DNA of 46,121 nucleotides. Source: Aporhodopirellula sallentina SM41 (lineage in GTDB: Bacteria > Planctomycetota > Planctomycetia > Pirellulales > Pirellulaceae). Made by a program: the position numbers and the translations under genes. The notes beneath the pieces are model-generated. The model was not told the origin of the DNA. It ran no database searches and saw only the letters and a program-made list of their open reading frames with translations. The number at the start of each line of letters is the position of its first letter. Position 1 is the stretch's first letter. The stretch spans positions 1-46,121 of the forward strand of contig NZ_ANOH01000489.1 in NCBI RefSeq assembly GCF_000346505.1, given 5' to 3'. Positions 5,844-41,869 of this stretch are shown one piece after another.

Positions 5844-5914
5844 TATTGGATCTAATTTAAGATCCCGCGGCATGAGGAGCTTTAACAAGCAGGATCTTTA
5901 ATAAGATCCACTCC
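5844..5914. repeat. degenerate GGATCTT-type palindromic intergenic element
   Basis: The left arm TTGGATCTAATTTAAGATCC and right arm GGATCTTTAATAAGATCCAC can pair imperfectly around a 26-bp centre. The right arm is nearly the same as that of the 56-bp elements at 22860 and 25126. It sits between convergent genes and could also act as a bidirectional terminator, although no clear T-tract follows. Confidence 0.6.
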
Positions 5915-5939
5915 CCAAAAATCGAAGTGCCATAAACCA

Positions 5940-7133
5940 CTAAAGGTTCTCTTCGATTTCCTCTGCGCTCGCCCGTGTCCCCAGTGCGCCCCACAACCCG
6001 TATGGACTGATCGCTCCCGGTTCACGTCCGGCGGTTCCGCCCGAAATAACTGTCCCCGATTCGGTATTGCCTGCCTCGATGGAGTCAGTAATGAATTTCA
6101 CGGCATCATCTGCCATTAACGCATGCGCGCCACCTTGGTGCCGACTGGACATTGACGCCATTCCGATGCCCGAGTCCCCGCCCGCAAAACACACCCCCGA
6201 ATTCGGCGGCAAGATCGTGTTGAACCCCGTGTATAGCGCCGCCCCGTCCGCCCAACGGAAGCCTCGCCGTTGATTCTCGCTGCCAATGCTCGCCGTTACC
6301 GCATCCTTGTTCGCCACGTCCCAAAACATCGGTCGTTCCGGATCAAGCTGTTCCCGGCACAAGACCGGCGAATCATGAATCATCGACCACGGATTCAAAA
6401 GCGATCCACTCGTTCGGCTATCGTGGTCACCTAGATCCGTACAAATTTCTCCGGCCATGATTGTGTTGGCCAAGCCGTCGAGAACATCCCGAAAACGGAT
6501 CACCTTTCGTGGCACGAACACACCACGTCCCGACGCCTTGATTTGCGATTCTCGGTCATTCGCCCACGCAGACAATTCTGCATTCCAACGAGTCGGCCCG
6601 GTATTGAGCCAATGAGTGGCGTCACCAAGGCATGCGGCGTAATTAGTCCGGCCATGCGACGGCAAACCCAATCCTGGATCGGAGGGGCATCGAAATGTCG
6701 GAATCTCCGTTTGCCACGGATCAAACTGCCGAGTCCACGGGGCAGGCCCCATCGGCGAAAACTGTTTGCTCTCCCCATCAGATAACTCCCCCGCCGACAC
6801 GTCTTCCCAAATCATCTGCTGTTCCACAAACGGCAATAGCCCGACGAGAAAACTCAATCGATAGCGGTTGTTTCCGGGTGCAGACGTGCCGCCGGAATCC
6901 GATTCCGAATCGTAGGTTCCTCCCATCTGCATCGGTAACTGGCTGTACGCCGAGTGATAGTTGTGCAAACCGAGACCGATCTGTTTGAAGTTATTACTGC
7001 AACTCATCCTCCGCGCAGCCTCCTTCGCCCCACGCGTCGCCGGCAGCAACAACCCAAAGAGCACTGCGCAGATTGCCACAACGACGAGCAATTCCACCAA
7101 AGTAAACGCGTCTCGCTTCTTTTGCGTCAACAT
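5940..7133 (-). CDS. DUF1559 prepilin-like exported protein (copy 1)
   Basis: Protein of 397 residues if started at the ATG at 7133, which has GGAGG about 8 bases upstream; a TTG at 7154 would add seven residues. The N-terminus MLTQKKRDAFTLVELLVVVA is a type IV prepilin/pseudopilin signal (basic leader, FTLVE, hydrophobic helix), followed by [20 protein letters not shown], the hallmark of the planctomycete DUF1559 (SBP_bac_10-like) family. Near the C-terminus, HALMADDAVKFITDSIEAGN corresponds to the usual DG motif but reads DD here. It closely resembles the copy at 23801-25012 (shared LPS.GRTNYA and FRDVLDGL.NTI.AGE). It follows a small lipoprotein gene on the same strand. The family is thought to be secreted or surface-assembled; its exact role is unknown. 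Confidence 0.93.
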   Translation of the reverse strand: MLTQKKRDAFTLVELLVVVAICAVLFGLLLPATRGAKEAARRMSCSNNFKQIGLGLHNYHSAYSQLPMQMGGTYDSESDSGGTSAPGNNRYRLSFLVGLLPFVEQQMIWEDVSAGELSDGESKQFSPMGPAPWTRQFDPWQTEIPTFRCPSDPGLGLPSHGRTNYAACLGDATHWLNTGPTRWNAELSAWANDRESQIKASGRGVFVPRKVIRFRDVLDGLANTIMAGEICTDLGDHDSRTSGSLLNPWSMIHDSPVLCREQLDPERPMFWDVANKDAVTASIGSENQRRGFRWADGAALYTGFNTILPPNSGVCFAGGDSGIGMASMSSRHQGGAHALMADDAVKFITDSIEAGNTESGTVISGGTAGREPGAISPYGLWGALGTRASAEEIEENL

Positions 7134-7171
7134 CCCCCACCCCTCCACATGCAAAACTTGTGCGTGACCCT

Positions 7172-7366
7172 TTATTCAGTCTGCCCGACCGAGAGTTCAT
7201 GCATTTCTTGATCGTACTGCTCATAGTCGGCGGGACTTGAGAACTCCGCGTCATCGGCCGGCACCCGCACCAACGATTCGCCTCCGCACCCAACCGTCGC
7301 CAGAACAATCAACACGATTCCGCCCCAACAAAGGCTCCTGCGAACCCGATTTTTCAAACCTGTCAT
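7172..7366 (-). CDS. small lipoprotein paired with DUF1559
   Basis: Protein of 64 residues. A basic start (MTGLKNRVRRS) is followed by a hydrophobic segment and a lipobox ending LATVGC, so the mature lipoprotein would be only about 40 residues, acidic and without a known domain. Its ATG overlaps the stop codon of the DUF2306 gene (ATGA, 7363-7366), which implies translational coupling, and it ends 38 bp before the DUF1559 start. A comparable small lipoprotein precedes the DUF1559 gene at 23801, so the order lipoprotein then DUF1559 recurs in the window. Confidence 0.85.
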   Translation of the reverse strand: MTGLKNRVRRSLCWGGIVLIVLATVGCGGESLVRVPADDAEFSSPADYEQYDQEMHELSVGQTE

Positions 7367-8091
7367 GGAACCGCCTCTTTTTCAGTGGGTATCGCCGCTG
7401 CACGATCTGGATTCCATTCTCTGCGCGGACGGCGGGCAAAGCAAGTTTCGTAAACGATCAGCGGAATCAACCAACTGATCCAAGAGTTCAATTGGTAGGA
7501 CCGTTCGGATTCCATCCCGGTCACAATGGCCGCGCCGGCGATCAAACGCAGCAACAACGGCGATGCGAGCAAGACAAAACACCTCATCGCCCATCGGCGG
7601 TGTGCGACGAAGCGGCGTTCTCGTGCCCGCAGCACCGCGAGGGCCAAACACCCCGCCGTCGCGAGGTTCAACACCACAAAACCTGCGGCCGAGATCGGCC
7701 CGGCGTAGGCGTCTTTTGCCATGATCATTCCGCTCGGGACAACCACCAACATCACCAACAAAAACTGCGTTCGCCCTGCCCAACGATGCCACCACCGCAA
7801 ACGGCCTTTGCCTTGACTGACAACGAGAAACGTCGCCAACATCAACGCTATCGGGCTAGACAAGATGTGGACGTAGAAGGCCTGCCGATACACGCCCGTG
7901 AACGAGTGCCGCCGTCCACTAAGAAAGTTGGATTCAAAATCGGCAGGAAAATAACGTCGATACTCGAGAACAATCGACAGAAAGACCTTGGCCAGCAACA
8001 GCACCACAGCCCACCCCAACAACCGCAAAAGCAATTCTCTCGAAGAACGCTTCTCGCTTTCAAACTCATCTCGTTTGAGCGATTGAACCAT
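7363..8091 (-). CDS. DUF2306 family multi-pass membrane protein
   Basis: Protein of 242 residues with about six or seven hydrophobic helices. The patterns YVHILSSPIALMLATF, WWHRWAGR and VAHRRWAMR (conserved His/Arg at helix ends) match the DUF2306 predicted membrane family, whose biochemical role is not established; a haem-related function is sometimes considered because of the conserved histidines. It starts with ATG at 8091 and its stop overlaps the start of the small lipoprotein by ATGA, so it is the first gene of a leftward three-gene cluster ending with DUF1559. Confidence 0.8.
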   Translation of the reverse strand: MVQSLKRDEFESEKRSSRELLLRLLGWAVVLLLAKVFLSIVLEYRRYFPADFESNFLSGRRHSFTGVYRQAFYVHILSSPIALMLATFLVVSQGKGRLRWWHRWAGRTQFLLVMLVVVPSGMIMAKDAYAGPISAAGFVVLNLATAGCLALAVLRARERRFVAHRRWAMRCFVLLASPLLLRLIAGAAIVTGMESERSYQLNSWISWLIPLIVYETCFARRPRREWNPDRAAAIPTEKEAVP

Positions 8092-8169
8092 GCGGGGCCG
8101 CTAGCAAGGGATGGTGATTGGAGACCTGACGTCTCCTTCACTATAACCCTTGCGAAATCTCTGCGTTGA

Positions 8170-10134
8170 CTAGCTCGCCCCCGACTGCCTACCGAAATAG
8201 CGTTCAATTAGGTCCTGCATCGCTTGCTGCGCCGCCTCACCGTCGGCCTCGCTATATGTCGCCGCCGTGGCACGATACCACCCGGTTCCGTACAGCGGGT
8301 TGGTGAGTTTTCCGAGCCCCTTCGGATAGACCCGTTTGAGATGCTGGCGAAACTCGCCATTGTCCATCGGAATCAACGTCTTGTAGTGCAACAACCGGTC
8401 ACGGATTTCCTTCGACGGTTGCAAGCCTTCTCGACGCATCATCCTCGCGAGTACCTGAGGCCGTTCGGGCTGAACTCCCCAAAAGTGTATCAACGGTGTC
8501 AGGTCAGCCCCGGCCGCCTTGGACAATCGCAAGATACGCGCGTCGGTCGGATCGGAGTTGTTAGGAACGCGATCTCCTGGTTTCCAACTGGCATTCTCCT
8601 CCTGCCAAAAACGACTCAACGCGTCCCAACCAAAGAGGTTGGCGATCTCGACATATTTCCCATAACCGCGGTGCTGATACTTCACCTCGTCACCGGGTTT
8701 GTTGCTGATGTTCATCGGTTTGCCGTTGCGGAAATTCTCCGTAACCATCCACATCACGGCAACCTCATCAATCGTGAGGTGATTCATCTTGTTCACCGAA
8801 GAACCGAAGGCTTCGTCCAAACTGAATCCAAACTTGCGGTTCATGACCGCAACGTGAGGAAGGTTGACGAGAGCTTCCGTTTCGCCACGGAACTTGGAAC
8901 AAAACTGCGAATGCCCGACTTCGTGGAACACCGTCCAATCTGCGAACTGTGGTCCTTTCAACATCCATGGATGCCGGCACTGTTCGGGTTGATATGCGTT
9001 GTACGGGTAATTCGATTGAGGATAGCCGGGGAAGTTCGCGTTGCCTCGCATCGCCACATCGGCTTGCAGGTACAGCACCGTTTTCGATCGAACGAGCGGA
9101 TGGCCGAATAATTCGGATACAGCATCCATCGCCTTATCCCAATCCTGCATCAGTTTGATCGGGTTGTTCAACTTGCTGAGCCAAGCGGTCGGGACTTGCA
9201 TCATGAATTTGTCGGTCTCGAAATCTGCCCACGGCCCTGGCCACCTCTTTTCAGTTCGATTCCACTCGGCCAATGTCGTCGAATGTGTCTTGGTCATTGA
9301 AAAAAACGGTGCCCGCGCCGCGTTCTTGACCCACACCTTCACCGCGCCAAGATTGGCTTGATACGGAACCTCAATGTAAACACCGCCCCCGAGAGGATTC
9401 GCGATCAGGGTCCGCGCCTCGGTGATCGGATAGACCAATGACACGCGATCGATGCGTTCGATCGTTTTCTTCTTCGACAGATCCCAAGAGTGCGCCCCGA
9501 CTCGGATTGAAAAGCCCTTGTTGACCATGGTAGGTGGCACTGCGACTTCCGCGATCTGCCCTGGCACCAGGTACCAACCCGTTGGTCGACGTGCCGCTCC
9601 GTCCGCACCGGCCACCGGACTTCCGACCGCTTTGGGATGCGACGCGTTGATCAACGCCGAATGAATCCCTTTTCCCGAACTCGCCTTGCCGACCGCACCG
9701 GGAAAGTACACTGATGTTTTGAAGAACATCCCGTCCATCATTCGGCGATACTTCTTCAAGTTGGCTGATGTGTACGCGTTGTCCAGCAACCCTTGTTGTA
9801 GAGCCAACATCGTGTGCTCGAGTTGCAGGTCAGGCGATGGCTTTCGCGGAAACCCATTCTTCGTCTTTGGATTCAAAAACAGCGGCCCTGCCTTCTGCTC
9901 ATAGAGCTCAACAACCGCAAACGCTTTCGCCATTGTTTTGGAATCCGCACCGAGCACGCCCGCGTTCTTTTCGATGAGCGCACGTCCCCGAGCGAGTTCT
10001 TCCGGAGACAACGAGGAGGTGCCCTCGATGTGCTGCTGCAGTCGCACCAACGCGGTGGTGATCGTGTCTTCGCTCGCACATACCGGGATCGCAAATCCGA
10101 CACACACGAAGGCTAGAAAGAATCGAAGATTCAT
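8170..10134 (-). CDS. exported M60-like (enhancin-type) zinc metallopeptidase
   Basis: Protein of 654 residues. The ATG at 10134 was chosen because it begins an ordinary signal peptide (MNLRFFLAFVCVGFAIPVCA); the frame stays open 42 codons further upstream but without a sensible N-terminus. The zinc site HEVGH (H404, E405, H408) is followed after nine residues by E418 in FRGETEALVN, matching the HExxHx(8,28)E gluzincin pattern of the M60 family. The supporting segments GWDALSRFW and LTPLIHFWGV are typical of the region after the catalytic site in M60-like proteins. Family members act on mucins or other glycoproteins; here the substrate is unknown, and secretion into a periplasmic or outer compartment is expected. 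It stands alone, with a 78-bp gap to the next gene. Confidence 0.85.
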   Translation of the reverse strand: MNLRFFLAFVCVGFAIPVCASEDTITTALVRLQQHIEGTSSLSPEELARGRALIEKNAGVLGADSKTMAKAFAVVELYEQKAGPLFLNPKTKNGFPRKPSPDLQLEHTMLALQQGLLDNAYTSANLKKYRRMMDGMFFKTSVYFPGAVGKASSGKGIHSALINASHPKAVGSPVAGADGAARRPTGWYLVPGQIAEVAVPPTMVNKGFSIRVGAHSWDLSKKKTIERIDRVSLVYPITEARTLIANPLGGGVYIEVPYQANLGAVKVWVKNAARAPFFSMTKTHSTTLAEWNRTEKRWPGPWADFETDKFMMQVPTAWLSKLNNPIKLMQDWDKAMDAVSELFGHPLVRSKTVLYLQADVAMRGNANFPGYPQSNYPYNAYQPEQCRHPWMLKGPQFADWTVFHEVGHSQFCSKFRGETEALVNLPHVAVMNRKFGFSLDEAFGSSVNKMNHLTIDEVAVMWMVTENFRNGKPMNISNKPGDEVKYQHRGYGKYVEIANLFGWDALSRFWQEENASWKPGDRVPNNSDPTDARILRLSKAAGADLTPLIHFWGVQPERPQVLARMMRREGLQPSKEIRDRLLHYKTLIPMDNGEFRQHLKRVYPKGLGKLTNPLYGTGWYRATAATYSEADGEAAQQAMQDLIERYFGRQSGAS

Positions 10135-10532
10135 GGGCTCACTCTGATGGAATCGTACTAACGGTGAACAGCCCAATAAAAACACCACATCCAAAGCAAT
10201 CGACAATGCAGCCTTGATGACGATGCAACATGGATTCGGCTCTCGCTGCCGAATCATCATGCGCTATCAACGGTCGTGAGAAACGTCCCAAGGCGAACGT
10301 CAACATGCGGTTTGCGATCCAACAATGACTCCACAAACCACACACATTGGACGACATCTCTCGTCTGTATTGGAGCTGTTCTTTGTTGCTAGCTTTGTCA
10401 GTAAAGAACGTCGTCGCAACCGTGATCATGCAGATAGGACAACGAATTTAGAACTTCTTTCGCTGCTGTGCGCCGGCGACCGAGACCCACACCGCGACGC
10501 GCACGGGGGGCTCTTCATCGCCCCGATGACGA
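10135..10532. other. intergenic, no gene seen
   Basis: This 398-bp stretch lies between the 3' end of recG and the start of the M60-like gene, both leftward. It should contain the promoter of the M60-like gene, but I cannot point to convincing -35/-10 boxes. No persuasive ORF, tRNA or strong hairpin was seen. Confidence 0.5.
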
Positions 10533-12794
10533 CTACGCACCATCGCCGAGATCGAGACGACTCGCGTAGCGCCGCAAGACCTGATCTCGCAGTCCCTCGA
10601 GCTCTTCCGCATCCATCTGCGGGTCCTCATCGATCAGGTCCTGAGCCATCTCTCGGGCGACCTGCAGGATCTCAACATCACGATTGAGATCAGCAATCCG
10701 CAGCGGTGCCAAACCACTTTGTTTCTTCCCCAACATGTCTCCCGGACCACGCAATCGGAAGTCCGCCTCGGCGAGTTCGAAACCATCGTTGGTTTGTTCA
10801 AACACTTTCAAACGCTCGCTCTCCTCAGGTGATCCCTCCCCGTCGGTAAAGACACACAGATAGCCCGCGTGAACACCTCGAGAAATTCTGCCACGCAACT
10901 GATGCAACTGAGCGAGTCCAAATCGATTGCCACCGAGGATTGTCATCACGGTTGCATTGGCGACATCGACTCCAACTTCGATGACTGTGGTGCTGACGAG
11001 AACGTCCACCTCTCCGTCAGCGAAACGCTGCATCACATCCTGTTTGGTTTCGGCATTCATCCGACCGTGCAGCAACTCAACCCGGAGCTTCGGAAACACA
11101 CGATCCCGCAGATGTTCGTAAGTTCGATTCACCGACGTTACATCTTCCACCTCATCGACCGCCGCGGCGCCGTCCTCATCTTCTTGGCGATCGTTGCCTC
11201 TTTCGGCGACATCATCACCCACACGTGGAGCGACGACGTAGGCTTGCCTTCCTTCGGCGATACGCTGTCTCACAAAATCCCACCATCGATCTCGCCATGA
11301 GTCCACCGCGAGATACGTATGCACCTCGCCACGTCCGGCGGGCTTCTCACGAAGCGTACTTAAATCGACATCACCGAACTGCGTCATCGCAACGCTGCGA
11401 GGAATCGGGGTCGCCGACATGACGAGGTAGTGCGGGTCGACGCCGCCTTCTCGCAACCGAACTCGTTGCCGGACACCGAACTTGTGTTGCTCGTCGATCA
11501 CACAGAGCCCGAGCGAGTGAAACTCGATGTCATACACGAGAGCCTGCGTGCCGATGATCAGATCCAACTCACCCGATGCGATCTTTTCGAGAGTCTCACG
11601 TCGTTGTGCCGTCGACAATGATCCGCAAAGCAGACCGATCCGCACGCGGCTGTCGGCGAGGATCTTGCCGAACGTTTGGTAGTGCTGACGGGCGAGCACT
11701 TCGGTCGGTGCCATCAACGTCGCTTGATGGCCCGACGCGACGGCGAGCATCATGGCGAAAATCGCGACTACCGTTTTTCCGCTACCGACATCACCCTGCA
11801 ACAATCGGTTCATCGGAAACTGCCGTCCCATCTCGGCGGCGATCTCATCGATCACACGATTCTGATCACTCGTCAGCTCAAAAGGGAACCGCCGAAGAAT
11901 GCGTTGCCGAATCTGCGCGGTGCAGGTCATCGCCGGTGCCTGCAATCGTCCGGTCAGTGACGAACGACGCATCGCCAAGGCGAGCTGCATGACAAACAAC
12001 TCTTGAAAAATCAGCCGAACGCGAGCCGCCGTTAGTTCCTCCTCCGACGGCGGATTGTGAAGGTCACGCAGCGTAGTCGCGATCGTCGGCAACGCCCCTT
12101 CAACTGCGACGCCGGCATCTCGCAAACGCCGCGCCGCATGCGACCGAATCTCACCCGGCATGACCTCTTTCACGCCGTCTGCGAGAACGTCGGCAACCCG
12201 CCGCGTCAGCCGCCGGAGTTCGTACTCCTTGATGCCTTCGGTCAGCGGATAAACCGGAAGGATCTCGCCGTTTCTCTCCTCATCGGCTCCGTCGACGTCT
12301 CCCTCGATGAGTTCGTACTTCGGATGCGTGAATTCCCATCGCAACCCAGCGAGCTTCGGCGTGCCGCTGATCCGCACGCGCCGATCCAAGGTCAACTGTT
12401 CGGCGCGGAACGGCTGGTTGAAGAAAACAATCCGCACCGCGCCGGAATCATTCTCCACGATCGCAGCAAACAGCGATTTTCCCGGAGTCCTCGAAACCAA
12501 CTCCGCATCGGTGATCTTACCGATAAACGTCGCCGGGCTCCCTTCCTTCAAATCCTCCACCTTGGTCGGCGGTGGAGGAAACTGGTGTTCCCGCGGGAAA
12601 AAAAAGAGCACGTCTTGGGCTTTCCGCAGCCCCAACTTCCTCAGTTTTTCCGCCCGCGCGGGCCCCACCCCCGGCAGAAACTGCAACAAAGTCGACGTCT
12701 CGAACTCAGGCACCGGCGGCGAATCCGCCTGCGAATCCGGCGTCATTTTCGACGAGGAAAGCGATTGTGGAGTGGATTCGTTGGGTTCAGCCAA
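10533..12794 (-). CDS. recG: ATP-dependent DNA helicase RecG
   Basis: Branch-migrating superfamily 2 helicase that remodels stalled forks and Holliday junctions in the cytoplasm. Protein of 753 residues: an N-terminal wedge/OB region beginning LQFLPGVGPARAEKLRKLG, Walker A GDVGSGKT, Walker B DEQHKFGVRQR, motif III SATPIPR, and C-terminal VSTTVIEVGVDV and QLRGRISRG. The TTG at 12794 gives the longest product; an ATG at 12746 would shorten it by 16 low-complexity residues, and neither has a clear ribosome site. One oddity is an acidic insert (DDVAERGNDRQEDEDG and following) between helicase motifs. Confidence 0.97.
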   Translation of the reverse strand: MAEPNESTPQSLSSSKMTPDSQADSPPVPEFETSTLLQFLPGVGPARAEKLRKLGLRKAQDVLFFFPREHQFPPPPTKVEDLKEGSPATFIGKITDAELVSRTPGKSLFAAIVENDSGAVRIVFFNQPFRAEQLTLDRRVRISGTPKLAGLRWEFTHPKYELIEGDVDGADEERNGEILPVYPLTEGIKEYELRRLTRRVADVLADGVKEVMPGEIRSHAARRLRDAGVAVEGALPTIATTLRDLHNPPSEEELTAARVRLIFQELFVMQLALAMRRSSLTGRLQAPAMTCTAQIRQRILRRFPFELTSDQNRVIDEIAAEMGRQFPMNRLLQGDVGSGKTVVAIFAMMLAVASGHQATLMAPTEVLARQHYQTFGKILADSRVRIGLLCGSLSTAQRRETLEKIASGELDLIIGTQALVYDIEFHSLGLCVIDEQHKFGVRQRVRLREGGVDPHYLVMSATPIPRSVAMTQFGDVDLSTLREKPAGRGEVHTYLAVDSWRDRWWDFVRQRIAEGRQAYVVAPRVGDDVAERGNDRQEDEDGAAAVDEVEDVTSVNRTYEHLRDRVFPKLRVELLHGRMNAETKQDVMQRFADGEVDVLVSTTVIEVGVDVANATVMTILGGNRFGLAQLHQLRGRISRGVHAGYLCVFTDGEGSPEESERLKVFEQTNDGFELAEADFRLRGPGDMLGKKQSGLAPLRIADLNRDVEILQVAREMAQDLIDEDPQMDAEELEGLRDQVLRRYASRLDLGDGA

Positions 12795-13082: not shown

Positions 13083-13090
13083 CTCCTACG

Positions 13091-18383: not shown

Positions 18384-18390
18384 GTTCAAG

Positions 18391-22859: not shown

Positions 22860-22915
22860 GTAGTGGATCTTGTTAAAGATCCTCACCCACCAAGATCTTT
22901 AACAAGATCCACTAC
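22860..22915. repeat. 56-bp GTAG...CTAC palindrome, family 1
   Basis: The left arm GTAGTGGATCTTGTTAAAGA pairs with TCTTTAACAAGATCCACTAC around a CACCCACC centre (arms match at 22 of 24 positions). The second full copy is at 25126; the arms differ at GTTA/TAAC versus GCGA/TCGC with pairing preserved. Confidence 0.9.
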
Positions 22916-23424
22916 CCCCCTACCCGAAAACCAATCTCTGCCAAAGAGGGGAAGGCCTACACTAGACCCACCCACCGAACCACAGAGGGGCGATTTCGGA
23001 AGCGTTTTAAAAACACCTAGCCGATAACGCCGAACTTCGGTGGCCTGAATTCTGGCGAGTCCGACTACAGGCATCAGTCGCATCAAGTTTCTAGATGCAC
23101 TCTTCGCATCCCCCTCACGTGCGCATGCAACATCTTGTGAGGCCCCTTCGCGCACAGACTGCAAAACGCGGCACGAAGAGAACGATTTGCAGTCCACCAA
23201 ACGTGCTTAGAGAGCGACGAAACGCCACAAGAACACTCTACGGAAAGAATAGTTTCGTTTTTTTCTTCTCACAGTGTTTAGATCGGCGAGTTTGGCTTGT
23301 TTAACGCTATAGACAAGGCCTTTATCACAACACAAGGAGGCGGTCCGGAGCACTATTTCTCGCTTCGGAAATAGGACGCCTCTCCACCAAAAACAATGCC
23401 TATCAACAGTCTGGACATCCCCAA
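22916..23424. other. intergenic with repeat copies, no gene
   Basis: This gap between the kinase gene and the small lipoprotein gene has no credible ORF. It contains a family 3 element at 23021-23068. The promoter of the lipoprotein/DUF1559 unit should lie in its right part (AT-rich around 23250-23320), but I cannot assign boxes reliably. Confidence 0.5.
23021..23068 (-). repeat. family 3 palindromic element (minus orientation)
   Basis: Read on the minus strand it begins GTAGTCGGACTCGCCAGAAT and contains CCACCGAAGTTCGGCGTTAT, nearly identical to the plus-strand copies at 25450 and 26450. Confidence 0.85.
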
Positions 23425-23649: not shown

Positions 23650-23800
23650 ACCCAACACAAACACGAGGAAGCTTGGTTGCCACATCAGCAAACGCGGCGT
23701 CCTTTAAAGTCAACAAAACGAAGTCAACGAAACCTTGATCAGCTCCCACCAGGCGTAGCTGATTTCCCGAACATTTTTGTTTTTACTAAGTGAGAAAACC

Positions 23801-25012
23801 ATGAACACCATGTCTCGTCCCTCTAACCGCTCCTCCAGAGACGGCTTCACCTTGGTGGAACTGCTCGTCGTAATCGCAATCATCGGCGTGTTGGTCGGCC
23901 TGCTGTTGCCCGCTGTCCAAGCCGCTCGAGAAGCCGCACGCCGCATGAGCTGCAGCAACAACTTCAAACAAATCGGCTTGGCGATCCACAACTACCACTC
24001 CGCCTACAACCAATTGCCCAAGAACATGTCCGGTACGGACGCCCGTGGCACCGGCGATAACAGCAAGAACAACGCTCTGCTGCTTAGCTGGCTCGTCGGT
24101 GTGACCCCGTTCATCGAACAGCAAGCAATCTGGGAACAAATCACCAACGGTGTCGACGCCGAAGGCGATCAGTACCAACCGATGGGACCAGCACCCTGGT
24201 ACGGTGGTTTTCAACCGTGGGCACTGGATATCCCCGCCTTCCGTTGCCCGAGCGATCCAGGCGTTGGTCTACCGTCGCTCGGACGCACCAACTATGCGTG
24301 TTCCCTTGGTGACAACCCACGCATGTCTCACTCGGGCGGTAAGAACCGGACCGATTATTATGACTGGAACGGAACCGCGGCGTGGCCAGGTTGGAACTCG
24401 GTTCAAGACCTCGCGGCACGAACCACCAGCGACTTGGCAAACGTCCCTGCATGGGTACGTGGCAGCAACCGCGGTATGTTCTGGAGCCGCCACGTGACCA
24501 AGTTCCGTGACGTTCTCGACGGTCTTTCCAACACCATCGCCGCTGGCGAAATGGCGACCAGCGTCGGACAGAAAGAGCTTATCGCCGAAGTCGCTCAGAG
24601 TGCTCACTACAGCACCTTGTTCACACCGAAAAAGTGCCAAGATCTGGCCGACCCCACTCGCCCTCAATTCTATCCGAGCAGCCAAAACGTTCTCTCCGGA
24701 AACCAAAGCCGTGGCTCACGTTGGGCTGACGGACGTTGGGTCTTCTCGGCAGTGCATACCGTGTTGCCACCGAACTCGGCGACCTGCTCGACCGGCGGTG
24801 ACAACGGCCAAGGCATCTCGACAATCTCCAGTCGTCACCAAGGCGGTGCTCACGTGCTGATGGGCGATGGTGCGGTCAAATTCATCACCGACTCCATCGA
24901 AGCCGGCGACGCCAACGCCGACCCAGTACAGAAAGGCGAGAAGAGCCCTTACGGACTTTGGGGTTCGCTCGGCACACGTGCTTCGAGAGAAATCATCGAC
25001 GAAGAGTTCTAA
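23801..25012 (+). CDS. DUF1559 prepilin-like exported protein (copy 3)
   Basis: Protein of 403 residues from the ATG at 23801 (the TTG at 23777 is less likely). The basic leader MNTMSRPSNRSSRDG is followed by [20 protein letters not shown], then [20 protein letters not shown]. The C-terminal part has VLMGDGAVKFITDSIEAGDA (DG motif intact) and ends GTRASREIIDEEF. It is the close paralogue of copy 1 (5940-7133), sharing the Trp-rich PMGPAPW segment and the GRTNYA block. A strong terminator follows 28 bp after the stop, so this gene ends its transcription unit. Confidence 0.95.
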   Translation: MNTMSRPSNRSSRDGFTLVELLVVIAIIGVLVGLLLPAVQAAREAARRMSCSNNFKQIGLAIHNYHSAYNQLPKNMSGTDARGTGDNSKNNALLLSWLVGVTPFIEQQAIWEQITNGVDAEGDQYQPMGPAPWYGGFQPWALDIPAFRCPSDPGVGLPSLGRTNYACSLGDNPRMSHSGGKNRTDYYDWNGTAAWPGWNSVQDLAARTTSDLANVPAWVRGSNRGMFWSRHVTKFRDVLDGLSNTIAAGEMATSVGQKELIAEVAQSAHYSTLFTPKKCQDLADPTRPQFYPSSQNVLSGNQSRGSRWADGRWVFSAVHTVLPPNSATCSTGGDNGQGISTISSRHQGGAHVLMGDGAVKFITDSIEAGDANADPVQKGEKSPYGLWGSLGTRASREIIDEEF

Positions 25013-25040
25013 ACCTCCGCGTCCGAATCGACTCGATCGA

Positions 25041-25075
25041 ACATCCCGTTGCCAAAAGCAACGGGATGTTTTTTT
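25041..25075 (+). terminator. rho-independent terminator after DUF1559 copy 3
   Basis: A perfect 12-bp stem: ACATCCCGTTGC at 25041-25052 pairs with GCAACGGGATGT at 25058-25069 around loop CAAAA, followed by a run of T to 25075. Confidence 0.93.
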
Positions 25076-25125
25076 GTAGACAGAGCAGCATAGTATTCCG
25101 ACGAGGCTTGCTCTTCGGATAGGCG

Positions 25126-25181
25126 GTAGTGGATCTTGCGAAAGATCCTCAGGCACCAGGATCTTTCGCAAGATCCACTAC
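25126..25181. repeat. 56-bp GTAG...CTAC palindrome, family 1
   Basis: The left arm GTAGTGGATCTTGCGAAAGA pairs with TCTTTCGCAAGATCCACTAC around a short centre. It has the same length and ends as the copy at 22860, with compensating base changes in both arms. Confidence 0.9.
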
Positions 25182-25239: not shown

Positions 25240-25308
25240 GTAGCGAACGTCGCCAAGACTTTCGGTGATTCACCAGGGCCCGCCGAAGCTCTTGGCGAGT
25301 TTCGCTAC
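25240..25308. repeat. family 2 palindromic element, first of a tandem pair
   Basis: It starts GTAGCGAACGTCGCCAAGAC and ends CTTGGCGAGTTTCGCTAC. The 26-bp arms match at about 22 positions. An almost identical unit follows 105 bp later, and a third copy is at 27996. Confidence 0.88.
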
Positions 25309-25344: not shown

Positions 25345-25413
25345 GTAGCGAACGTCCCCAAGACTTTCGGTGATTCGCCAGGGCGCGCCGAAACTTTTGG
25401 CGAGTTTCGCTAC
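25345..25413. repeat. family 2 palindromic element, second of a tandem pair
   Basis: It starts GTAGCGAACGTCCCCAAGAC and ends TTTGGCGAGTTTCGCTAC. The flanks (AAGT-AA-TT-CAAAT-TTGACGGGTC) are duplicated with it, so the duplicated unit is about 105 bp. Confidence 0.88.
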
Positions 25414-25449: not shown

Positions 25450-25501
25450 GTAGCTGGATTCGCCAGAATTCAGACGACCGAAGTTTGGCGACATCAACTA
25501 C
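25450..25501 (+). repeat. family 3 palindromic element
   Basis: A 52-bp element starting GTAGCTGGATTCGCCAGAAT and ending GGCGACATCAACTAC. The arms share GTAG.TG...TCGCCA with the family 2 arms, suggesting a common origin. Confidence 0.85.
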
Positions 25502-26294: not shown

Positions 26295-26885
26295 CAAATT
26301 CCACCTTAGCAAAATCAAAGTTCGATGAACCCATCGTGAATTGTGAACAAAACCCAACCGTGAATTCGCGAGCCGATCGCTTTCGTCCGGAGATGTCATC
26401 CAAATCAACAAGCCGTTGAGCATTTTAAAATTGGACGCATCCGATACCTGTATCCGGATTCGTCAGAATACAGACCACCGAAGTTCGGCGTTATCGACTA
26501 CATCATTTTTGAATACGCTGCAGGCCCGTTATATCCGCGGCTAACGCCGACTGACTGAACGGTTCTCGGATCGATTCGTAATTCGAATGCCGTCGGTCGA
26601 TCACCAATATCTTTGGGTAGGTTCGAAAGCGCGCCGCAGTGTGATCCGGCACGAAACCCGAAACACTCTGCAACACAACAAACAAACCGCTCGCGATCTC
26701 AACGGATCACGAAGTCGGTTTACTACATAGCGGTTCGTGTTGAGAATGAATTCGTGCACAAAATTTGTTTGAGATTTCTGAAATTCCATCTGCGTCGACC
26801 TCGCATCACTCTCCGTCCGATTCCCACTGACGCGTTCACCGCGGTCCCGGGTTGCCGATTGCATTTGGTACGATGAGCCTCATCC
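26295..26885. other. intergenic with a family 3 element, no gene
   Basis: This 591-bp region between divergent genes holds a family 3 copy at 26450-26501 and the short motif AAATCAACAAGCCGTTGAG at 26402-26420, which recurs in part at 31537-31550. No credible ORF was seen. Confidence 0.5.
26450..26501 (+). repeat. family 3 palindromic element
   Basis: A 52-bp copy starting GTATCCGGATTCGTCAGAAT and ending CGGCGTTATCGACTAC. The start carries GTAT instead of GTAG, so this copy is slightly degenerate. Confidence 0.82.
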
Positions 26886-27779: not shown

Positions 27780-27809
27780 ACGCGGTTGTTTTGTTCTAGA
27801 GACTGGTTT

Positions 27810-27833
27810 CGGTCTCGGGGAGACCGAGCTACG
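27810..27833 (-). repeat. short GTAG-footed hairpin (REP-like)
   Basis: The minus strand reads GTAG followed by CT and the hairpin CGGTCTCCCCGAGACCG, a foot plus simple stem arrangement like classical REP elements. It lies 30 bp after the FRG gene and could also help end its transcript. Confidence 0.7.
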
Positions 27834-27995
27834 TGGGAGCGGGGCAGGGGAGGGAAAGACAGAATTTGCGGAGGGCGTGGATGCTTGGAATCTCTGGCCC
27901 GTGATTTGCATCCGAGATGTATTCGATTCAACACAATCGTAAACATCCCTGCAATCCTAGTGGTGCGTCACGATCAAGTATGAGGGATCAAGGCC

Positions 27996-28063
27996 GTAGC
28001 GAAAGTCGCCAAGACTTTCGGTGATTCACCAGCCCTCCCAAAACTCTTGGCGAGTTTCGCTAC
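27996..28063. repeat. family 2 palindromic element
   Basis: It starts GTAGCGAAAGTCGCCAAGAC and ends CTTGGCGAGTTTCGCTAC. It is the third copy of the pair at 25240 and 25345 and fills most of the gap before the next gene. Confidence 0.87.
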
Positions 28064-28116
28064 CCGAAAACTAGGCATTGACGCACCACGAGACATCTCT
28101 GGAGAGTACGAAACCC

Positions 28117-31334: not shown

Positions 31335-31400
31335 CGTTTAACCGGTAGCCGTAGGCGACGTGCAGTGGCAAGTAGGTCGCCTTCGGCTACCCGTTAAACG
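31335..31400. repeat. family 4 palindromic element
   Basis: CGTTTAACCGGTAGCCGTAG starts the left arm and CTTCGGCTACCCGTTAAACG closes the right arm; the 25-bp arms pair with about three mismatches. The inner part again shows GTAGCC...GGCTAC. Confidence 0.85.
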
Positions 31401-31417: not shown

Positions 31418-31484
31418 CGTTTAACCCGTGCCCGAAGGGTAGGTTGCGTTCCGTCAAGCGTCGCCTACGGCTACCGGTTAAACG
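31418..31484. repeat. family 4 palindromic element, diverged
   Basis: It starts CGTTTAACCCGTGCCCGAAG and ends CTACGGCTACCGGTTAAACG. The outer 9 bp are a perfect inverted repeat; the inner arms are less well matched than in the element at 31335. Confidence 0.75.
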
Positions 31485-36657: not shown

Positions 36658-36662
36658 GCGTC

Positions 36663-36680: not shown

Positions 36681-36688
36681 TGCTGGTT

Positions 36689-36737
36689 ATTAGCTATTAG
36701 CTATTAGCTATTAGCTATTAGCTATTAGCTATTAGCT
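36689..36737 (+). repeat. seven tandem copies of the 7-mer ATTAGCT
   Basis: Seven exact copies of ATTAGCT, followed by a degenerate eighth (TTTAGCT) and GGCTAGTGGCTAGTGACTC. A 7-mer array of this kind is prone to slippage in length. Confidence 0.95.
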
Positions 36738-36913
36738 TTTAGCTCATGGCTAGTGGCTAGTGACTCATGACCGTGACTCTCGGCTTCCGCTCGGGCTTGC
36801 CCCGGCGGAATCAACGCCACTCGCTCTTCTCTCCGTCTGCATTTTTTGGCAACCATGCCCGCCAACGGTTTGTCAATTTAATGAGTGGCGCCGATCGGAG
36901 CGTCTCTTACAAA

Positions 36914-36945
36914 CCGATCACGGAGTGATCGGCGACTTTCGCTAC
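36914..36945 (-). repeat. GTAG-footed hairpin (REP-like, related to family 2)
   Basis: On the minus strand GTAGCGAAAGTCG is followed by the hairpin CCGATCACTCCGTGATCGG. The foot GTAGCGAAAGTCGCC equals the left arm of the family 2 element at 27996, but the rest differs. Confidence 0.75.
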
Positions 36946-36949
36946 GGTT

Positions 36950-39064
36950 CTACTTCGATTGCATTTCCATCACCGGATTGACCTTCTTGGTCTGATTGGT
37001 GATGGCGTCGACGACGCGGCCTAGCAGCACCACGCTCGGCGTGTCGCCCGGGTGTTCGTGCACGAGCGACGCCAGTTCCCGCGCCGCCGACGTGAGGTCC
37101 GAATGGTGAAACGATCGCAGCGCCGACTCATACCGGTCGGCCATCGATCGCCACGTCGGGTCGTTTCCGGTCTGCAACTCGTGCAGCTCGACAATCTCTT
37201 TGACACCCAACGGCCGTACGTTCGCCAGCCGCCGTGTCTGCATCGCTTCATCGCACTCCGTCGCGATCGCTTCGCTGCCGAGAGCTTCGGCATGGCTGGC
37301 GCTGCTCTTGGCCAGCGCGTCTCGAGTGGCTTTCGTGATCAACGCCGACACCCCAAATCTTTTGGTGATCCCTTGCACACGGCTCGCCAAGTTCACCGTG
37401 TTACCGAGCGGACCGTACTTGAATTTCACCAACGATCCCGTGTTTCCCACTCGGGCCATGCCCGTGTTGATCCCGATCCCCACGCCAAACCGCTCCGGCG
37501 TAATCGCCTTCCATCGCTGCCGCAGCGGTTCGATCTGCTTGAGCATTTGACACGCCGCGTTGCAGGCTCGCCGGGCGTGATCGGGTTGCTCCGCCGGCGC
37601 CCCCCACATCGCCATCAACTCGTCTCCGACGTAATCAACCAACACGCCATCGGTCCGGGTCACGCACAAACTTAACTGCGTCAAAACATCATTGATCCAC
37701 TCGATCGTTTTCTCCGGACCAACCCGTTCAGTGATCGCACTGAAACCGCGGATGTCACAAAACAGCACCGACACCTCCGCATCACGACCGGTCAGCAAGT
37801 CTTCGTTTTGCTGCAAACGCTGAGTAATCGCGGGCGAGAAGAACTGCGTCATCGACGCCTGAATCGCCTCTTGTCGCTGGCGCAGTATCCCTGCGGACAC
37901 CGCACCGGCCATCACTTCGAGCAGCGTCGCCTCGAGGTCACCGATCGGCGTGTCCGGATGATTCGTACCGTAGCTACGATCACCGTAGAGTGCACCGATC
38001 ACGACGCCGTGGTCGTCAAAGATCGGCGACGCAACCGCACGGTCGAGCAGCATGATCGATGATCCGATGGTGTGCTTGTAACTCTCCGGTTCGTAAATGA
38101 CCGTTTCGCGTTTCTGCAAAACACGTTGCAACAACAACCGACTCCCTGAGGGCAGAGGGACATCGATCCGTGTATTCCGCTCGGCCGACGCCTCGGGATT
38201 GGCTTCCGCCTCGGCGTCCTCGACCGTTTCGTCGTTGTTAGACCGCTTTCGAAACAATCCGCCGCCGTTAGGTTCGGACGCCGATTCGAGGGACTCATCG
38301 GTTTCCTGTTCGCGTTGATCGAAATGGGCACGCACCCACCACTTCGACTCGCCTTCCCGCATCAAGACATACGCGCGATCCAGTTCGATCATTCCCGCGA
38401 CGCTCTGCACCGCCGTGTCAAAGAACTCATCACTGCCCGCTGACTTCTTCACCACCGCGAGAGCCTGACGGACCAAGTCGACCGCCGCGTGCCCACGATT
38501 CGGGTTGGAATCCTCCGTGAACGTCCGGATGAAACTCGCCCCCGGATTCATCGGCATCGTGAAATCAGCCCGAAACGCGTCCGGATCGGGCGACGGCGGT
38601 CGTTTCGAATCCGGCGAAATCGTCCGGAACGACGCCGAACCATGAGGCTCAAATTCGCCGCCCGAATCCGATTGGTTCTGAGACAAACTCGTGCACAACA
38701 CCACCTTCACGATCAGATTCTCGGGCAACAGAATCGTGAACTCACGGTCATCCTGAACGCTCGCCTGTGGCATCACCGGCACCGGATCCGACGCCACCTG
38801 AAACGTCGAGCGGGCATGCAGGTTTTTCAGGACGAGCTTCCCCTCGTCATTGACCGAAACGCTCAACGCGTGACGTGGCAACCCCAACGAAGTGATCGGC
38901 GCGATCGCGATGCGGTACTGATTGCCGAGATCCTGCACCTTTCGAAGAATCGCATTTTCCTCGTCGCGCGACTGCCGCCCAATCTCCAGCGGCAATCCCG
39001 ACTCGCCGATCCAGCATTCCTGCTGGCCTTGCCAAAGCGTGACATCCACCACGGGCGACGACAT
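36950..39064 (-). CDS. FHA-like/GAF class III nucleotide cyclase
   Basis: Soluble protein of 704 residues. Residues 1-125 look like an FHA-type beta-domain (weak), 195-395 a GAF domain (including MLLDRAVASPIFDDHGVVIG), and about 425-610 a class III cyclase catalytic domain. Metal-binding Asp residues are D437 (LFCDIRGFS) and D481 (VGDELMAMWG); N558 and R562 (NTVNLASR) match the transition-state pair. The residue normally Lys for adenine recognition is D477 (LVDYVGD) and the usual Asp is N555 (PLGNTVN), so the substrate cannot be assumed to be ATP. A Ser/Glu-rich linker (about 255-300) splits the GAF region. The GAF domain probably senses a small ligand and controls cyclic nucleotide output. 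Confidence 0.88.
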   Translation of the reverse strand: MSSPVVDVTLWQGQQECWIGESGLPLEIGRQSRDEENAILRKVQDLGNQYRIAIAPITSLGLPRHALSVSVNDEGKLVLKNLHARSTFQVASDPVPVMPQASVQDDREFTILLPENLIVKVVLCTSLSQNQSDSGGEFEPHGSASFRTISPDSKRPPSPDPDAFRADFTMPMNPGASFIRTFTEDSNPNRGHAAVDLVRQALAVVKKSAGSDEFFDTAVQSVAGMIELDRAYVLMREGESKWWVRAHFDQREQETDESLESASEPNGGGLFRKRSNNDETVEDAEAEANPEASAERNTRIDVPLPSGSRLLLQRVLQKRETVIYEPESYKHTIGSSIMLLDRAVASPIFDDHGVVIGALYGDRSYGTNHPDTPIGDLEATLLEVMAGAVSAGILRQRQEAIQASMTQFFSPAITQRLQQNEDLLTGRDAEVSVLFCDIRGFSAITERVGPEKTIEWINDVLTQLSLCVTRTDGVLVDYVGDELMAMWGAPAEQPDHARRACNAACQMLKQIEPLRQRWKAITPERFGVGIGINTGMARVGNTGSLVKFKYGPLGNTVNLASRVQGITKRFGVSALITKATRDALAKSSASHAEALGSEAIATECDEAMQTRRLANVRPLGVKEIVELHELQTGNDPTWRSMADRYESALRSFHHSDLTSAARELASLVHEHPGDTPSVVLLGRVVDAITNQTKKVNPVMEMQSK

Positions 39065-39457
39065 GGGAAAACAACCTTGGGTAAAAAACGCGAGCTATCA
39101 AAGCATGAACAGTGTTCATCGTAACCTAATCAGAAGTCCACACTGAGGGGACTCGCAACGCGACAATTTCCCATCCCGCATCGGCCCTCGCCGCAACCAC
39201 GGAAAAACACGATCTGCCGAACCAATCTTCCGGAAAACGCGCGAGGACGTGCGGCGTCCAATCGCACACGGAGCGAACTCCCTCTTACCTCGCGGGTAAC
39301 GGGAACTATCATATCGCTTCCCTTCTCGCCCGAACCCGCACGCAGCCCAAACCTGCCCGCAGCCCAGCACGGCCCCGCACGCAGACGGAACCTGCACGGC
39401 GCGACCTTCCTTCCTCGTTCGGCCACCTGAACCTCCTTCGCGACGATCACGACTTTC
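39065..39457. other. intergenic between divergent genes, no gene
   Basis: A 393-bp region that must hold the promoters of the cyclase (leftward) and the His-rich gene (rightward). It contains a GC-rich stretch with repeated CGCAGCCCA and CCCGCACGCAG words around 39339-39380. No ORF or structured RNA was recognised. Confidence 0.5.
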
Positions 39458-40183
39458 GTGAACTATCGACACCTCTACCGATCGTCCATCCTGGTGATGC
39501 TCGCCGCTGCCGCGGTGTGCGTGCTGGGGCTACGCAGCGTCACGTCGCACAGCCACTCCGACGGCGACAAAGGTCACACCCATGCCGCCCTGCCGCACGG
39601 TTTGATACCTCACGTTCACCCGGCCGAGCACGCTCATTCTCACGGCCGCTCGCACCAACATGCTCATGCACATTCTCATGATCACGCGCACGAACATTCA
39701 CACCCGCACTCGTCCTCGCACCCGCCCTCACAACCGACGATAGGTTCGTCGCACCCGGCACCTTCCGACGACCGACCGACGCTCGCCAAAACGTCAGATC
39801 CCTACTCGTCCAATAGTTCTGCGCCCCATCGTTCTGCGACCCTCACCGCGGCCAGCCACCACTCGCACTACGTCTTCTTCGGGTTCGAGTTCATCCTCTT
39901 CGAGTCCGCCGCTCAGAAATCCGCTGCATACGGATCAACTCCTTACCGAGCCACTCGCTACGATTGCACTCCGCGAGATTCGATCTCTCACGATGGCTTC
40001 TGCAACGTTGATCTCCGAGGCTGGCTCGCACGCATCTTTGACGTCCGCAGCCCGCTGCCTCCGGAAAGTCTGGCGTCGGCAATGACGCCCTCGAGCATTC
40101 GGTTCCACCGAACTCTCTGCCTAAACGGAGGACGCCTCGACGATCCTCCTTCCTCGCCGCCTCCCGAGTTGGTCTCTCACTGA
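39458..40183 (+). CDS. His-rich exported/membrane protein, possible metal binder
   Basis: Protein of 241 residues with a GTG start (no ATG near). The N-terminal hydrophobic stretch SSILVMLAAAAVCVLGL is followed by TSHSHSDGDKGHTH and a dense His array around 55-90 (HAHSHGRSHQHAHAHSHDHA, then HEHSHPHSSSH), typical of Zn/Ni/Co-binding segments. The remaining part is Ser/Pro-rich with FFGFEFILFES as a second hydrophobic patch and no known domain. It precedes a DUF1559 gene by 416 bp. A role in metal buffering outside the cytoplasm is inferred from composition only. Confidence 0.7.
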   Translation: MNYRHLYRSSILVMLAAAAVCVLGLRSVTSHSHSDGDKGHTHAALPHGLIPHVHPAEHAHSHGRSHQHAHAHSHDHAHEHSHPHSSSHPPSQPTIGSSHPAPSDDRPTLAKTSDPYSSNSSAPHRSATLTAASHHSHYVFFGFEFILFESAAQKSAAYGSTPYRATRYDCTPRDSISHDGFCNVDLRGWLARIFDVRSPLPPESLASAMTPSSIRFHRTLCLNGGRLDDPPSSPPPELVSH

Positions 40184-40599
40184 CGTGCGGCACGTCACCC
40201 CAACTCAATCCTTCGCAAATCGGCAGACGCCTGTTTGATCGCTACCGGCGATGAACCTTGCTGCCTGCGCTCGATCCCGCACTCATCGACCGTGTGTCGC
40301 TTGGGCGTTCGCCAGTATGGTTATCCAGCGCAGTTTCAGCGTGGTCATTCAGCGTGGTCATTCAGGGTGACCTATCCAGCGTGTTCATCCACCGAGATGA
40401 CTGCGTCCGGAAACGGTCCCGGTCCGCCGTGGTCGAGAGCGAACGCCCCGATCGCGCTGCATTCATTGAGTTACGAGCCGTTCGCGTCAGCAAGTCATTC
40501 GTCAACAACCGCGCACGTTGCCATGAAGTGGCAATTGCCACGAAGCAACAACGTGCGCTCCCATTTATCTGTTCCAACTCAATCATTCCAACTCAATCC
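40184..40599. other. intergenic with short GTGGTCATTCAG repeats, no gene
   Basis: Short tandem words CAGCGTGGTCATTCAGCGTG and its variants lie around 40338-40395. The frame of the DUF1559 gene is open back to 40258 but shows no sensible protein before 40600. No promoter could be assigned. Confidence 0.5.
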
Positions 40600-41544
40600 A
40601 TGCATCACTCACTCTCTCCCTTCTATCAACACCGCAGAGCCTTCACTCTCATCGAACTCCTTGTGGTGATCGCGATTATCGGCGTCCTCGTCGGGTTGCT
40701 TTTGCCCGCGGTACAGGCCGCCCGAGAAGCCGCCCGCCGCATGTCGTGCAGCAACAACCTCAAACAACTCGCCCTTGGAATCCACAACTACGAATCCACC
40801 TACGGACGGCTCCCCGCGGGATACCTTCACAAACCGGGCCCGAGCGGTCCGTTGTTCGACGCCAACCACATGGGCGTCGCCTGGGGGACAGCCATTCTTC
40901 CTCAGATCGAACAGCGCGGCCTGTTCGAGCAGTTCGACTTCAGCCGTCCGGTATGGGATGTCGCCAACCTCGACGCCCGAGAAACTTCACTGGCGACCTT
41001 CCTCTGCCCCTCGGACACGTACTCCGAAGGCTCATACGTGGTTCGCGACGATTCAGTGACGCCGATCGAACGTTACGCCGCCGCCTCCTACGCGGCCAAT
41101 TGGGGACCATCCACCGCGACAGTCAACCTCGACGACACGCCTTTGCAGAGCGAGGGCGTGTTCTATCGAAACAGCCCCACGCGATTTCGAGACATCCTCG
41201 ACGGGCTCTCCAACACCCTGGCACTGGGTGAACGCACCAACGGGCCACTCCCGATGAGCAACCCGTCGACCGGAGGCCACATGAACTTCGAGACCGCCTG
41301 GTCTGCCGCCGTCCGCGACATCGACGATTTGGGCGACGACCACGGACACATGGTGCTGTTCGAAACCCAATACCGTCCCAACGAAATCGATGGTGACGAC
41401 AAAGGCCTCTCCGCCCCACACGTCGGCCTATGCCAGTTCGCACTCTGCGACGGATCCGTCCGCGCGATCTCCTCGCAAATCGACGAAGAACTCTACAACG
41501 CGCTAGGCACCCGCAAAGGCAAAGAAGTAATCGAAGAGTTCTAA
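40600..41544 (+). CDS. DUF1559 prepilin-like exported protein (copy 4)
   Basis: Protein of 314 residues, the shortest DUF1559 copy here, from ATG at 40600: [20 protein letters not shown] then a hydrophobic helix. [20 protein letters not shown] follows, and the C-terminus has [20 protein letters not shown] with the DG motif. The middle part is compact ([16 protein letters not shown]). Unlike copies 1 to 3 it has no lipoprotein neighbour; a His-rich protein gene stands upstream instead. Confidence 0.94.
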
Positions 41545-41810
41545 ACCAAGAAGATCAAACACCCGGTTCATCCCTCCGAACTTGGAGGTCGTGCAGTTTG
41601 TCGAGGTCGCGTTTTAGCGGGTTTCAGCATTTGAGAACCTCTCCCGAAACGAAGTTTTGGGGGAGGTCGAGCGCCGCCGTTCAGGCGTACGCGAGGGAGG
41701 GGGGCCGAGCATGGGAAGCGGCGCGGTTTGCCCTCCCCCGGAAATCTCACTGAACGCTCGCTTTTCGCCCGCTCCCGCTGGGGATGTCGGTTGATTAAGG
41801 GCAGCATTTG

Positions 41811-41869
41811 GTAGTGGACGAGGCGACGAGTCCTTTGCGTGGGGAAGGACTCGTCGCCTCGCCCACTAC
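41811..41869. repeat. 59-bp GTAG...CTAC palindrome
   Basis: GTAGTGGACGAGGCGACGAG starts the left arm and CTCGTCGCCTCGCCCACTAC closes the right; 24 of 25 positions pair around a 9-nt centre. The ends equal those of family 1 (GTAGTGG...CCACTAC) but the stem sequence is entirely different. Confidence 0.92.

Follow-up and report, generated by a model that had tools for sequence, protein, structure and literature searches.

Inverted pairs of repetitive extragenic palindromes (REPs), known as REPINs, were reportedly described by Bertels and Rainey in 2011. The elements studied here are palindromes with the tetranucleotide GTAG at the foot of a hairpin, on a contig of 46,121 nucleotides from Aporhodopirellula sallentina SM41 (NZ_ANOH01000489.1, contig C489; its whole length is the window), together with genes for REP-associated tyrosine transposases (RAYTs, TnpA-REP). 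GTAG repeats were arranged in 24 families by Di Nocera et al. 2013 and, in the consulted part of that paper (PMC3733652), R. baltica is among the genomes with several families, multi-family species have repeat-specific RAYTs, and dimers of the A. variabilis family GTAG-15 lie inside long palindromes. According to the available part of another study (PMC8266576), any change of GTAG abolished binding and cleavage by the TnpA-REP of E. coli; group 3 enzymes tolerate more and depend on the loop too, and in one such enzyme the dinucleotide to be cleaved is selected by GTAG.

The palindromes of the window are, with high probability, GTAG-type REPs, mostly REPINs, which form several populations per genome, each traced to a RAYT that reads its own stem and loop. 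They resemble the GTAG REPs and REPtrons of PMC3733652, as far as the consulted part describes them, in the GTAG foot, stems of 6–9 bp, head-to-head dimers and several families per genome with their own RAYTs; for families A–F (defined below) this is a likeness by description. With the REPINs of PMC8049555, seen in part, they share the inverted REP pair as unit and, for families B, D and F, a RAYT in the same genome, and they differ in that no RAYT of the clade defined below was found in the own genome for family A. The reading is based on the hairpins, their pairing and copy number, the common foot, RAYT genes with matching flanks and the parallel divergence of RAYT and stem, all observed, and on a predicted RAYT fold. 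REPs and RAYTs of this kind are already known, very likely from this genus, and those described here are very likely further REPINs with their RAYTs; what is added is that RAYTs and stems diverge in parallel across Pirellulales-type genomes, together with the exchange of cores from one kind of outer palindrome (shell) to another.

GTAG-footed hairpins in the window and the genome

The GTAG...CTAC elements are inverted hairpin pairs composed of GTAG, 0–1 nt, a stem, a short loop, a spacer and the mirror image of these parts. Five stem families with a GTAG foot occur in the window, mostly as inverted pairs (GTAG-hairpin...hairpin-CTAC), in agreement with a preliminary description of this DNA, which held that stems of several sequence families share the foot. 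The stems are GGATCTTgttaAAGATCC (family A), CGAAAGTCgccaaGACTTTCG (B), CTGGATTCgccaGAATTCAG (C), GGACGAGGCGACGAGTCC (D, imperfect) and CTCGGTCTCcccGAGACCGA (E, mostly single hairpins). Spacing in family A is fixed, 45 of 47 pairs read measuring 56 bp. In family F, GTAG lies inside a longer arm and not directly at the hairpin foot.

The genome of strain SM41 (8.19 Mb in 491 contigs) was sampled for hairpins in 60 stretches picked by contig number (592,407 bp), and the tetramers 0–2 nt before perfect stems of at least 7 bp were compared. GTAG stood before perfect hairpins in 31 of 1995 cases, 9.2 times the mean rate, and was first by p-value; the value itself (8e-20) is not literal, because copies within families are not independent. 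Next was TAGT, a word that overlaps GTAG (16/1060), and CTAC gave 5/1997. The 31 GTAG hairpins comprised 11 of family A or A-like, 7 of B, 10 of E and 3 others. In the window alone GTAG preceded hairpins in 7 of 175 cases (10.7-fold, p 5e-6), second by p-value to AAAA (11/421).

Among 322 perfect hairpins from 638,528 bp, grouped with no prior families, five groups had at least three members; the foot lay directly beside the stem in 8/9, 9/9, 7/8 and 3/3 members of four of them (27/29 together), and the fifth (4 members) consisted of whole family-A pairs. Genome-wide counts, made for families A, B and D and not for C, E and F, gave 249, 228 and 114 single hairpins with at most two mismatches, family A being the most numerous of the three, and the reversed-pattern controls gave 0 each. 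The doubts voiced in the preliminary description, that the elements might be few or that GTAG ends might be no commoner than base composition predicts, are thus not borne out. Chance would say that GTAG ends are expected for hairpins of such composition. In a perfect palindrome a GTAG at the start entails a CTAC at the end, so the two ends count as a single observation, and copies inside a family are not independent; both facts speak for caution. Given the tetramer enrichment with GTAG far ahead of CTAC, five repeated hairpin groups each tagged with GTAG, the empty reversed controls and the linkage of these repeats to RAYT genes, a chance origin was rejected and is regarded as practically impossible.

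Nine elements had been listed as starting with GTAG and/or ending with CTAC, and seven of them do both. These are the family-A REPINs at 22860..22915 and 25126..25181 (56 bp each), the family-B REPINs at 25240..25308 and 25345..25413 (69 bp each, starts 105 bp apart) and at 27996..28063 (68 bp), the family-C pair at 25450..25501 (plus strand, second arm imperfect) and the family-D REPIN at 41811..41869 (59 bp). The eighth, at 27809..27832, is a single family-E REP on the minus strand with its foot GTAG at 27832. The ninth has to be withdrawn as a footed hairpin: at 36914..36945 (minus strand) a hairpin CCGATCAC-GGA-GTGATCGG adjoins a family-B tail (CGACTTTCGCTAC), to which the CTAC belongs, and the fragment is a family-B remnant beside an unrelated hairpin. 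Three further elements had been called close to this form. Two, at 23020..23068 (minus strand) and 26450..26501 (plus strand, foot GTAT for GTAG), are indeed decayed family-C pairs; the third is a family-F palindrome (CGTTTAACCGGTAGCC...) at 31335..31400, with GTAG inside its arm and a second copy at 31418..31484. A decayed family-A REPIN with the foot GTAT was recognised from its sequence at 5843..5912. The family-B REPIN at 27996..28063 is enclosed by an outer palindrome (CTAGTGGTGCGTCA ... TGACGCACCACGAG, 27957..28092) whose terminal complementarity is above the 99% null. No strand is assigned to the family-A, -B, -D and -F elements or to this outer palindrome.

All these elements are located between the long open reading frames (ORFs) of the window, although shorter ORFs of the mechanical list overlap some of them. 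Such a position would also suit hairpins that selection maintains as transcription terminators or for RNA stabilisation, outside any mobile family. Stem pairing is maintained: in 20 family-B hairpins from the window and RAYT flanks 97.5% of stem cells are paired, against at most 49.4% with a shifted partner, and 3 of 8 pairs vary on both sides (10 cells). Compensatory changes of this kind keep the stem, as selection on RNA would too. A terminator-like hairpin does occur at 25040–25070 (25040–25077 with its T run), just after the ORF 23777–25012, the start of which we take to resemble a prepilin-type protein. This hairpin has no GTAG, and the family-A copies there are without T runs. Terminators need neither a GTAG foot nor hundreds of near-identical copies nor a flanking transposase gene with a matching stem, and they were rejected as the main explanation, which we consider improbable. 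A secondary role in RNA may remain, as REPs elsewhere can act on RNA (PMC3733652, consulted part).

RAYT genes and the divergence of their hairpins

The Pfam Y1 model matched 3 places in the own genome. The RAYT genes for which the preliminary description proposed a search of the whole genome are present. On contig C146 a RAYT gene of 196 amino acids (aa) lies between two family-B REPINs; contig C8 starts within a related RAYT gene, 52% identical to that of C146, with family-D hairpins by its 5' end, the only side on the contig; and on C248 a Y1 ORF of 244 aa lies between two palindromes of family F, the same kind as those of the window. The genes of C146 and C8 define the clade followed below. 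Ordinary IS200/IS605 elements were rejected as an explanation, the two clade genes of the own genome being single, only 52% identical to each other and without near-identical transposase copies.

Other Y1 genes of the own genome have other surroundings. Those on C121, C95:72247 and C95:49886 were discarded as partners, as repeats of other kinds surround them and no GTAG foot was seen. A 209-aa Y1 gene on C95 (L019, 1387–2016) has the best own score with the RAYT model (71 bits) and GTTGGAGTCAAGGCTTTAGCC repeats on both sides, without a GTAG foot. Y1 genes of about 400 aa on C326, C334, C188 and C228 have repeats of other kinds at their flanks; the first three (L023, L024, L026) encode Y1-type proteins of about 390–430 aa with GGTGGGTGGCACCAT-type repeats, and that on C228 (L025), in the same size range, has CCCACTAGG-type repeats. 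At least nine rows of genome G009 have open frames of 380–385 aa and look like a single gene that is multiplying.

The comparison set comprised twelve other genomes of the same genus, 13 with the own one. The clade was found in 9 of these 13 at E <= 1e-3 and was strong (E < 1e-80) in 7; in the order it was present in 10 of 196 genomes at E <= 1e-20, own genome included, and it was also found at 6 loci of named records (titles: Pirellulaceae, Planctomycetaceae, Stieleria, Planctomycetes, bacterium). Twenty-nine clade genes were tallied, namely 13 strong rows of the genus, the 6 named-record loci and 10 of 14 order-wide rows; L244 (as L144), L248 (flanking repeats as L141) and L245 and L254 (the own genes again) were not included. 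Seven weak matches (E 2e-6 to 9e-4), several of which carry GTAG hairpins with other stems, were not counted as clade members.

GTAG-tagged repeats were present within 350 bp of all 29 clade genes, and on both sides of 25; the patterns were drawn up with the flanks already known, so that this is a tally and not a blind test. L129 runs off its contig, and L123, L130 and L133 showed repeats on one side under the patterns used. Near 19 clade genes GTAG foots 66 hairpins in 16 loci, and none of 15 other tetramers exceeded 9 hairpins or 8 loci. As background, of 400 pieces of 600 nt taken at random from the own genome, 49 held a GTAG hairpin. Family A flanks L142 (uncultured Pirellulaceae) as well as L246 and L250 in two genomes of another genus, and a close variant of it flanks L143; family-C-like stems flank L133, L135 and L251–L253, the last three from another family. 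Families A and C were seen beside such genes solely outside the own genome.

In the genus, GTAG-footed hairpins with still different stems also lie near Y1 genes that belong to other clades, for example at L196, L197, L199–L201, L203–L205, L212 and L219, and at L033–L036, L038, L045, L046, L056, L057 and L059. No GTAG hairpin was detected at the threshold used in 14 of 28 Y1 loci of one set, nor at L202, L206, L208–L211, L213, L215–L217 and L220 of a second set of 28. Because many Y1 loci are without a GTAG hairpin, the foot is common and not universal among Y1 genes of the genus. The hairpins flanking L203–L205 and L212 (GTAGCCTAGGCTTCCAGCCTGGG, GTAGGTTGGGCTTCCAAGCCCGAC) resemble family E in layout. 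Three tandem Y1 genes with equal scores, about 1 kb apart and with GTAGCCATTGGCGTTAGCCAATGG hairpins between them, were seen at G012:C1:6437942-6440280 (L045, L056).

The divergence of the RAYTs is paralleled by that of the hairpins. Six stem classes, to which the flanking hairpins were assigned by eye, can be placed on a tree of 26 RAYTs with 5 changes, which is the minimum; shuffled classes need 15.2 on average, and 0 of 200 shuffles were as low. Class B lies on one side of a fully supported branch, classes D and C have supports of 84 and 83, and class A is split. Protein and hairpin distances are correlated (Mantel r 0.72, p 1e-4, and r 0.77 when the first 18 are taken); the rows include the duplicate pair L144/L244, and close relatives add to a value of this kind. 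Alignments and trees exclude L133 and L256 (inner stop), and this tree also L247 (stem not entered) and L255 (no frame found); L244, with zero branch length to L144, was kept and adds no information. Because stem class follows RAYT clade, several specificities are supported, and the planctomycete REP system with several specificities postulated in the preliminary description is upheld, with the reservation that a RAYT was found neither for family E nor, in the own genome, for family A.

The C146 RAYT was modelled from an alignment of 18 rows with a mean predicted local distance difference test (pLDDT) of 90 and a predicted template modelling (pTM) score of 0.86. The best solved match of the model was 4er8, the E. 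coli TnpA-REP on its REP hairpin (E 7.5e-9, TM 0.58/0.68), followed by the TnpA proteins of ISDra2 and IS608; a search of PDB sequences with the clade gave one chance match only (E 0.19). The HxH motif is invariant, and 17 of the 18 aligned RAYTs retain the Y1 tyrosine, which lies in YIARNP. Predicted fold, HxH, Y1 tyrosine and the GTAG foot at the hairpin are thus shared with the E. coli enzyme (4er8; PMC8266576, consulted part), from which the system differs in sequence (16% identity in the structural alignment with 4er8) and in the stems of families A, B and C, which are perfect over 7–8 bp, against a bulged stem in E. coli. In L144 (2007–2561; Stieleria tagensis, NZ_JAMYFE010000069.1) D stands in place of the Y1 tyrosine, yet family-D hairpins lie on both sides; its near-identical relative L125 (G006) keeps the tyrosine.

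Each REPIN population would accordingly be traceable to a RAYT reading its own stem and loop, with the GTAG foot in common. By analogy with the TnpA-REP proteins studied so far, the RAYT would bind the hairpin as single-stranded DNA, GTAG would help binding and the choice of the cleavage site, and the conserved tyrosine would cut and rejoin the strand, so that the REPIN would move as a non-autonomous single-stranded unit. GTAG would then be the constant guide, and stem and loop would give specificity.

Several observations weigh against this interpretation. The RAYT-type genes of the own genome score below the cut-off of the NCBIfam RAYT model (NF047646, REP_Tyr_transpos, equivalog; 80 bits): the model gave 13 rows at E <= 10 and 8 at E <= 0.001, with a maximum of 71.1 bits and with 31.1 for the gene of C146, 38.4 for C8 and 49.4 for C248, and other genes exceed the cut-off in 8 of the 13 genus genomes. 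A clade RAYT for family A was not found in the own assembly, where contig breaks at repeats could hide one, and none was found for family E. REPIN populations and RAYTs do not always coincide, as G009 has 89 family-A and 86 family-B hairpins and G008 has 45 of family B with no strong clade RAYT in either, and G011 has 237 of family D with no clade RAYT at E <= 1e-3. Family-D counts do not track RAYT presence (114 in G000, 244 in G007 and 7 in G006, all with a D-type RAYT; 3–237 in the other ten), and neither movement nor an empty REPIN site was seen at an orthologous place. Family-B counts are higher in the six genomes where a B-type RAYT was found (26–228) than in the seven where it was not (4–86).

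Outer palindromes around REPIN cores

In G009, 22 family-A REPINs were read by eye with their flanks, and in 20 of them one or both arms of one of three unrelated palindromes are present: shell i (CTAGTATTCC...GGAATACTAG, 6 copies), shell ii (CTAGTGGTCTGTCACAGCT...AGCTGTGACAGACCACTAG, 9 copies) and shell iii (AAGCATCGCGGGATCA...TGATCCCGCGATGCT, 5 copies). By the same reading, all 20 have a 10-bp REPIN centre that corresponds to their shell. Shell iii also encloses hairpin pairs with a GTGG foot, and at L238 it is coreless, the two arms joining directly. The GTGG-footed pairs (GTGGCGACTTTCAGTCGCC...) are the core of shell iii at L224–L229 and L240 of G009, and the copies listed with both ends measure 112 bp end to end, the same length as shell iii around family A. 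The sequences CTAGTGGTCTGTCA and CTAGTATTCC were noted as ends of outer palindromes in the genus.

Shell ii was found around another family in a second species. The G009 profile of its left arm matches 14 of 20 family-D loci of G007 and that of its right arm 7 of 20; it matched 0 of 20 family-B loci and nothing in the 592-kb own sample. In clear copies of both species the core starts 7 nt past the TTAGG of the left arm and ends right before CCTAA. The idea that shells are confined to genomes lacking the RAYT was given up, since G007 carries family D in shell ii and possesses a D-type RAYT too.

Terminal complementarity above the 99% null was detected in 9 of 16 family-A copies of G009 and 7 of 16 family-D copies of G007; in the own genome it was found in 2 of 45 copies of family A (4 of 45 at the 95% level), 1 of 6 of D and 1 of 5 of B, and in G002, G003, G005 and G007 in 0 of 19 copies of B. 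The flanks of own family-A copies are partly conserved near the core, with TTTTCGGGTAGGCG before and CCGAAAA after it; 0 of 42 own family-A loci match the G009 shell profiles, and with the family-A flank profile some own family-D copies were matched, at weak scores only (E 0.14 to 2.4). Own family-A copies as full miniature inverted-repeat transposable elements (MITEs) therefore find little in their favour, and because complementarity is rare in the own genome, the shell-and-core reading draws on G009 and G007 and not on strain SM41.

A part of the copies, above all of family A, could have spread as cargo inside larger MITE-like palindromes moved by another transposase, the RAYT having made the first REPINs; this would add to the RAYT explanation for some families and compete with it for others. 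We hold it for possible, though the odds seem to lie against it. G009, where no strong clade RAYT was detected and most family-A REPINs carry shell arms, agrees with it, as do the association of centre and shell, the occurrence of shell ii around family D and the GTGG-footed cores of shell iii. The scarcity of complementarity and of shell matches in own family A is contrary to it, and so is the presence of shell ii in a genome with a D-type RAYT. Moreover, a long element with shell-ii ends was not found in G009, the only genome searched (28 ends: 12 close pairs and 4 singles), and the CTAG ends of the shells are self-complementary, so target duplications are indistinguishable from ends.

The same outer palindrome holds different REPIN cores in related genomes, and shell and core may be separate modules. 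A further suggestion, offered tentatively, is that REPIN cores and outer palindromes form two mobile modules, independent of each other, which can combine and be swapped: RAYTs would seat REPINs at palindrome centres, perhaps since the exposed loop is single-stranded, and the transposase of the outer element would multiply the composite. GTAG-15 of A. variabilis is comparable, being a REP dimer centred in a longer palindrome, but in the consulted part of PMC3733652 there is one palindrome per REP family, whereas here one core occurs in three shells and one shell holds two core families in two species. In the literature on Rhodopirellula REP, MITE and palindromic repeats, planctomycete RAYTs, and REP/REPIN and MITE, covered incompletely, no title or abstract dealt with an exchange of cores between shells.

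Meaning for the genus

RAYT-associated REPINs, as the palindromes are preferably read, make a system ordinary in kind, and its value lies in the many enzyme–hairpin pairs and in those large populations to which no RAYT could be assigned. Such populations (family A in two genomes, family D in a third) pose the question whether REPINs are able to last or to spread when their enzyme is missing. Core exchange between outer palindromes suggests a way for this: if it is true, a REPIN population could grow without a matching RAYT, as family A in G009 and perhaps in the own genome. In the genus and its relatives, more than two dozen related RAYTs are paired with known hairpins, in which the foot is constant and stem and loop vary with the enzyme. 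They form a natural data set on which RAYT residues read which hairpin bases, a matter so far addressed in vitro on few systems.

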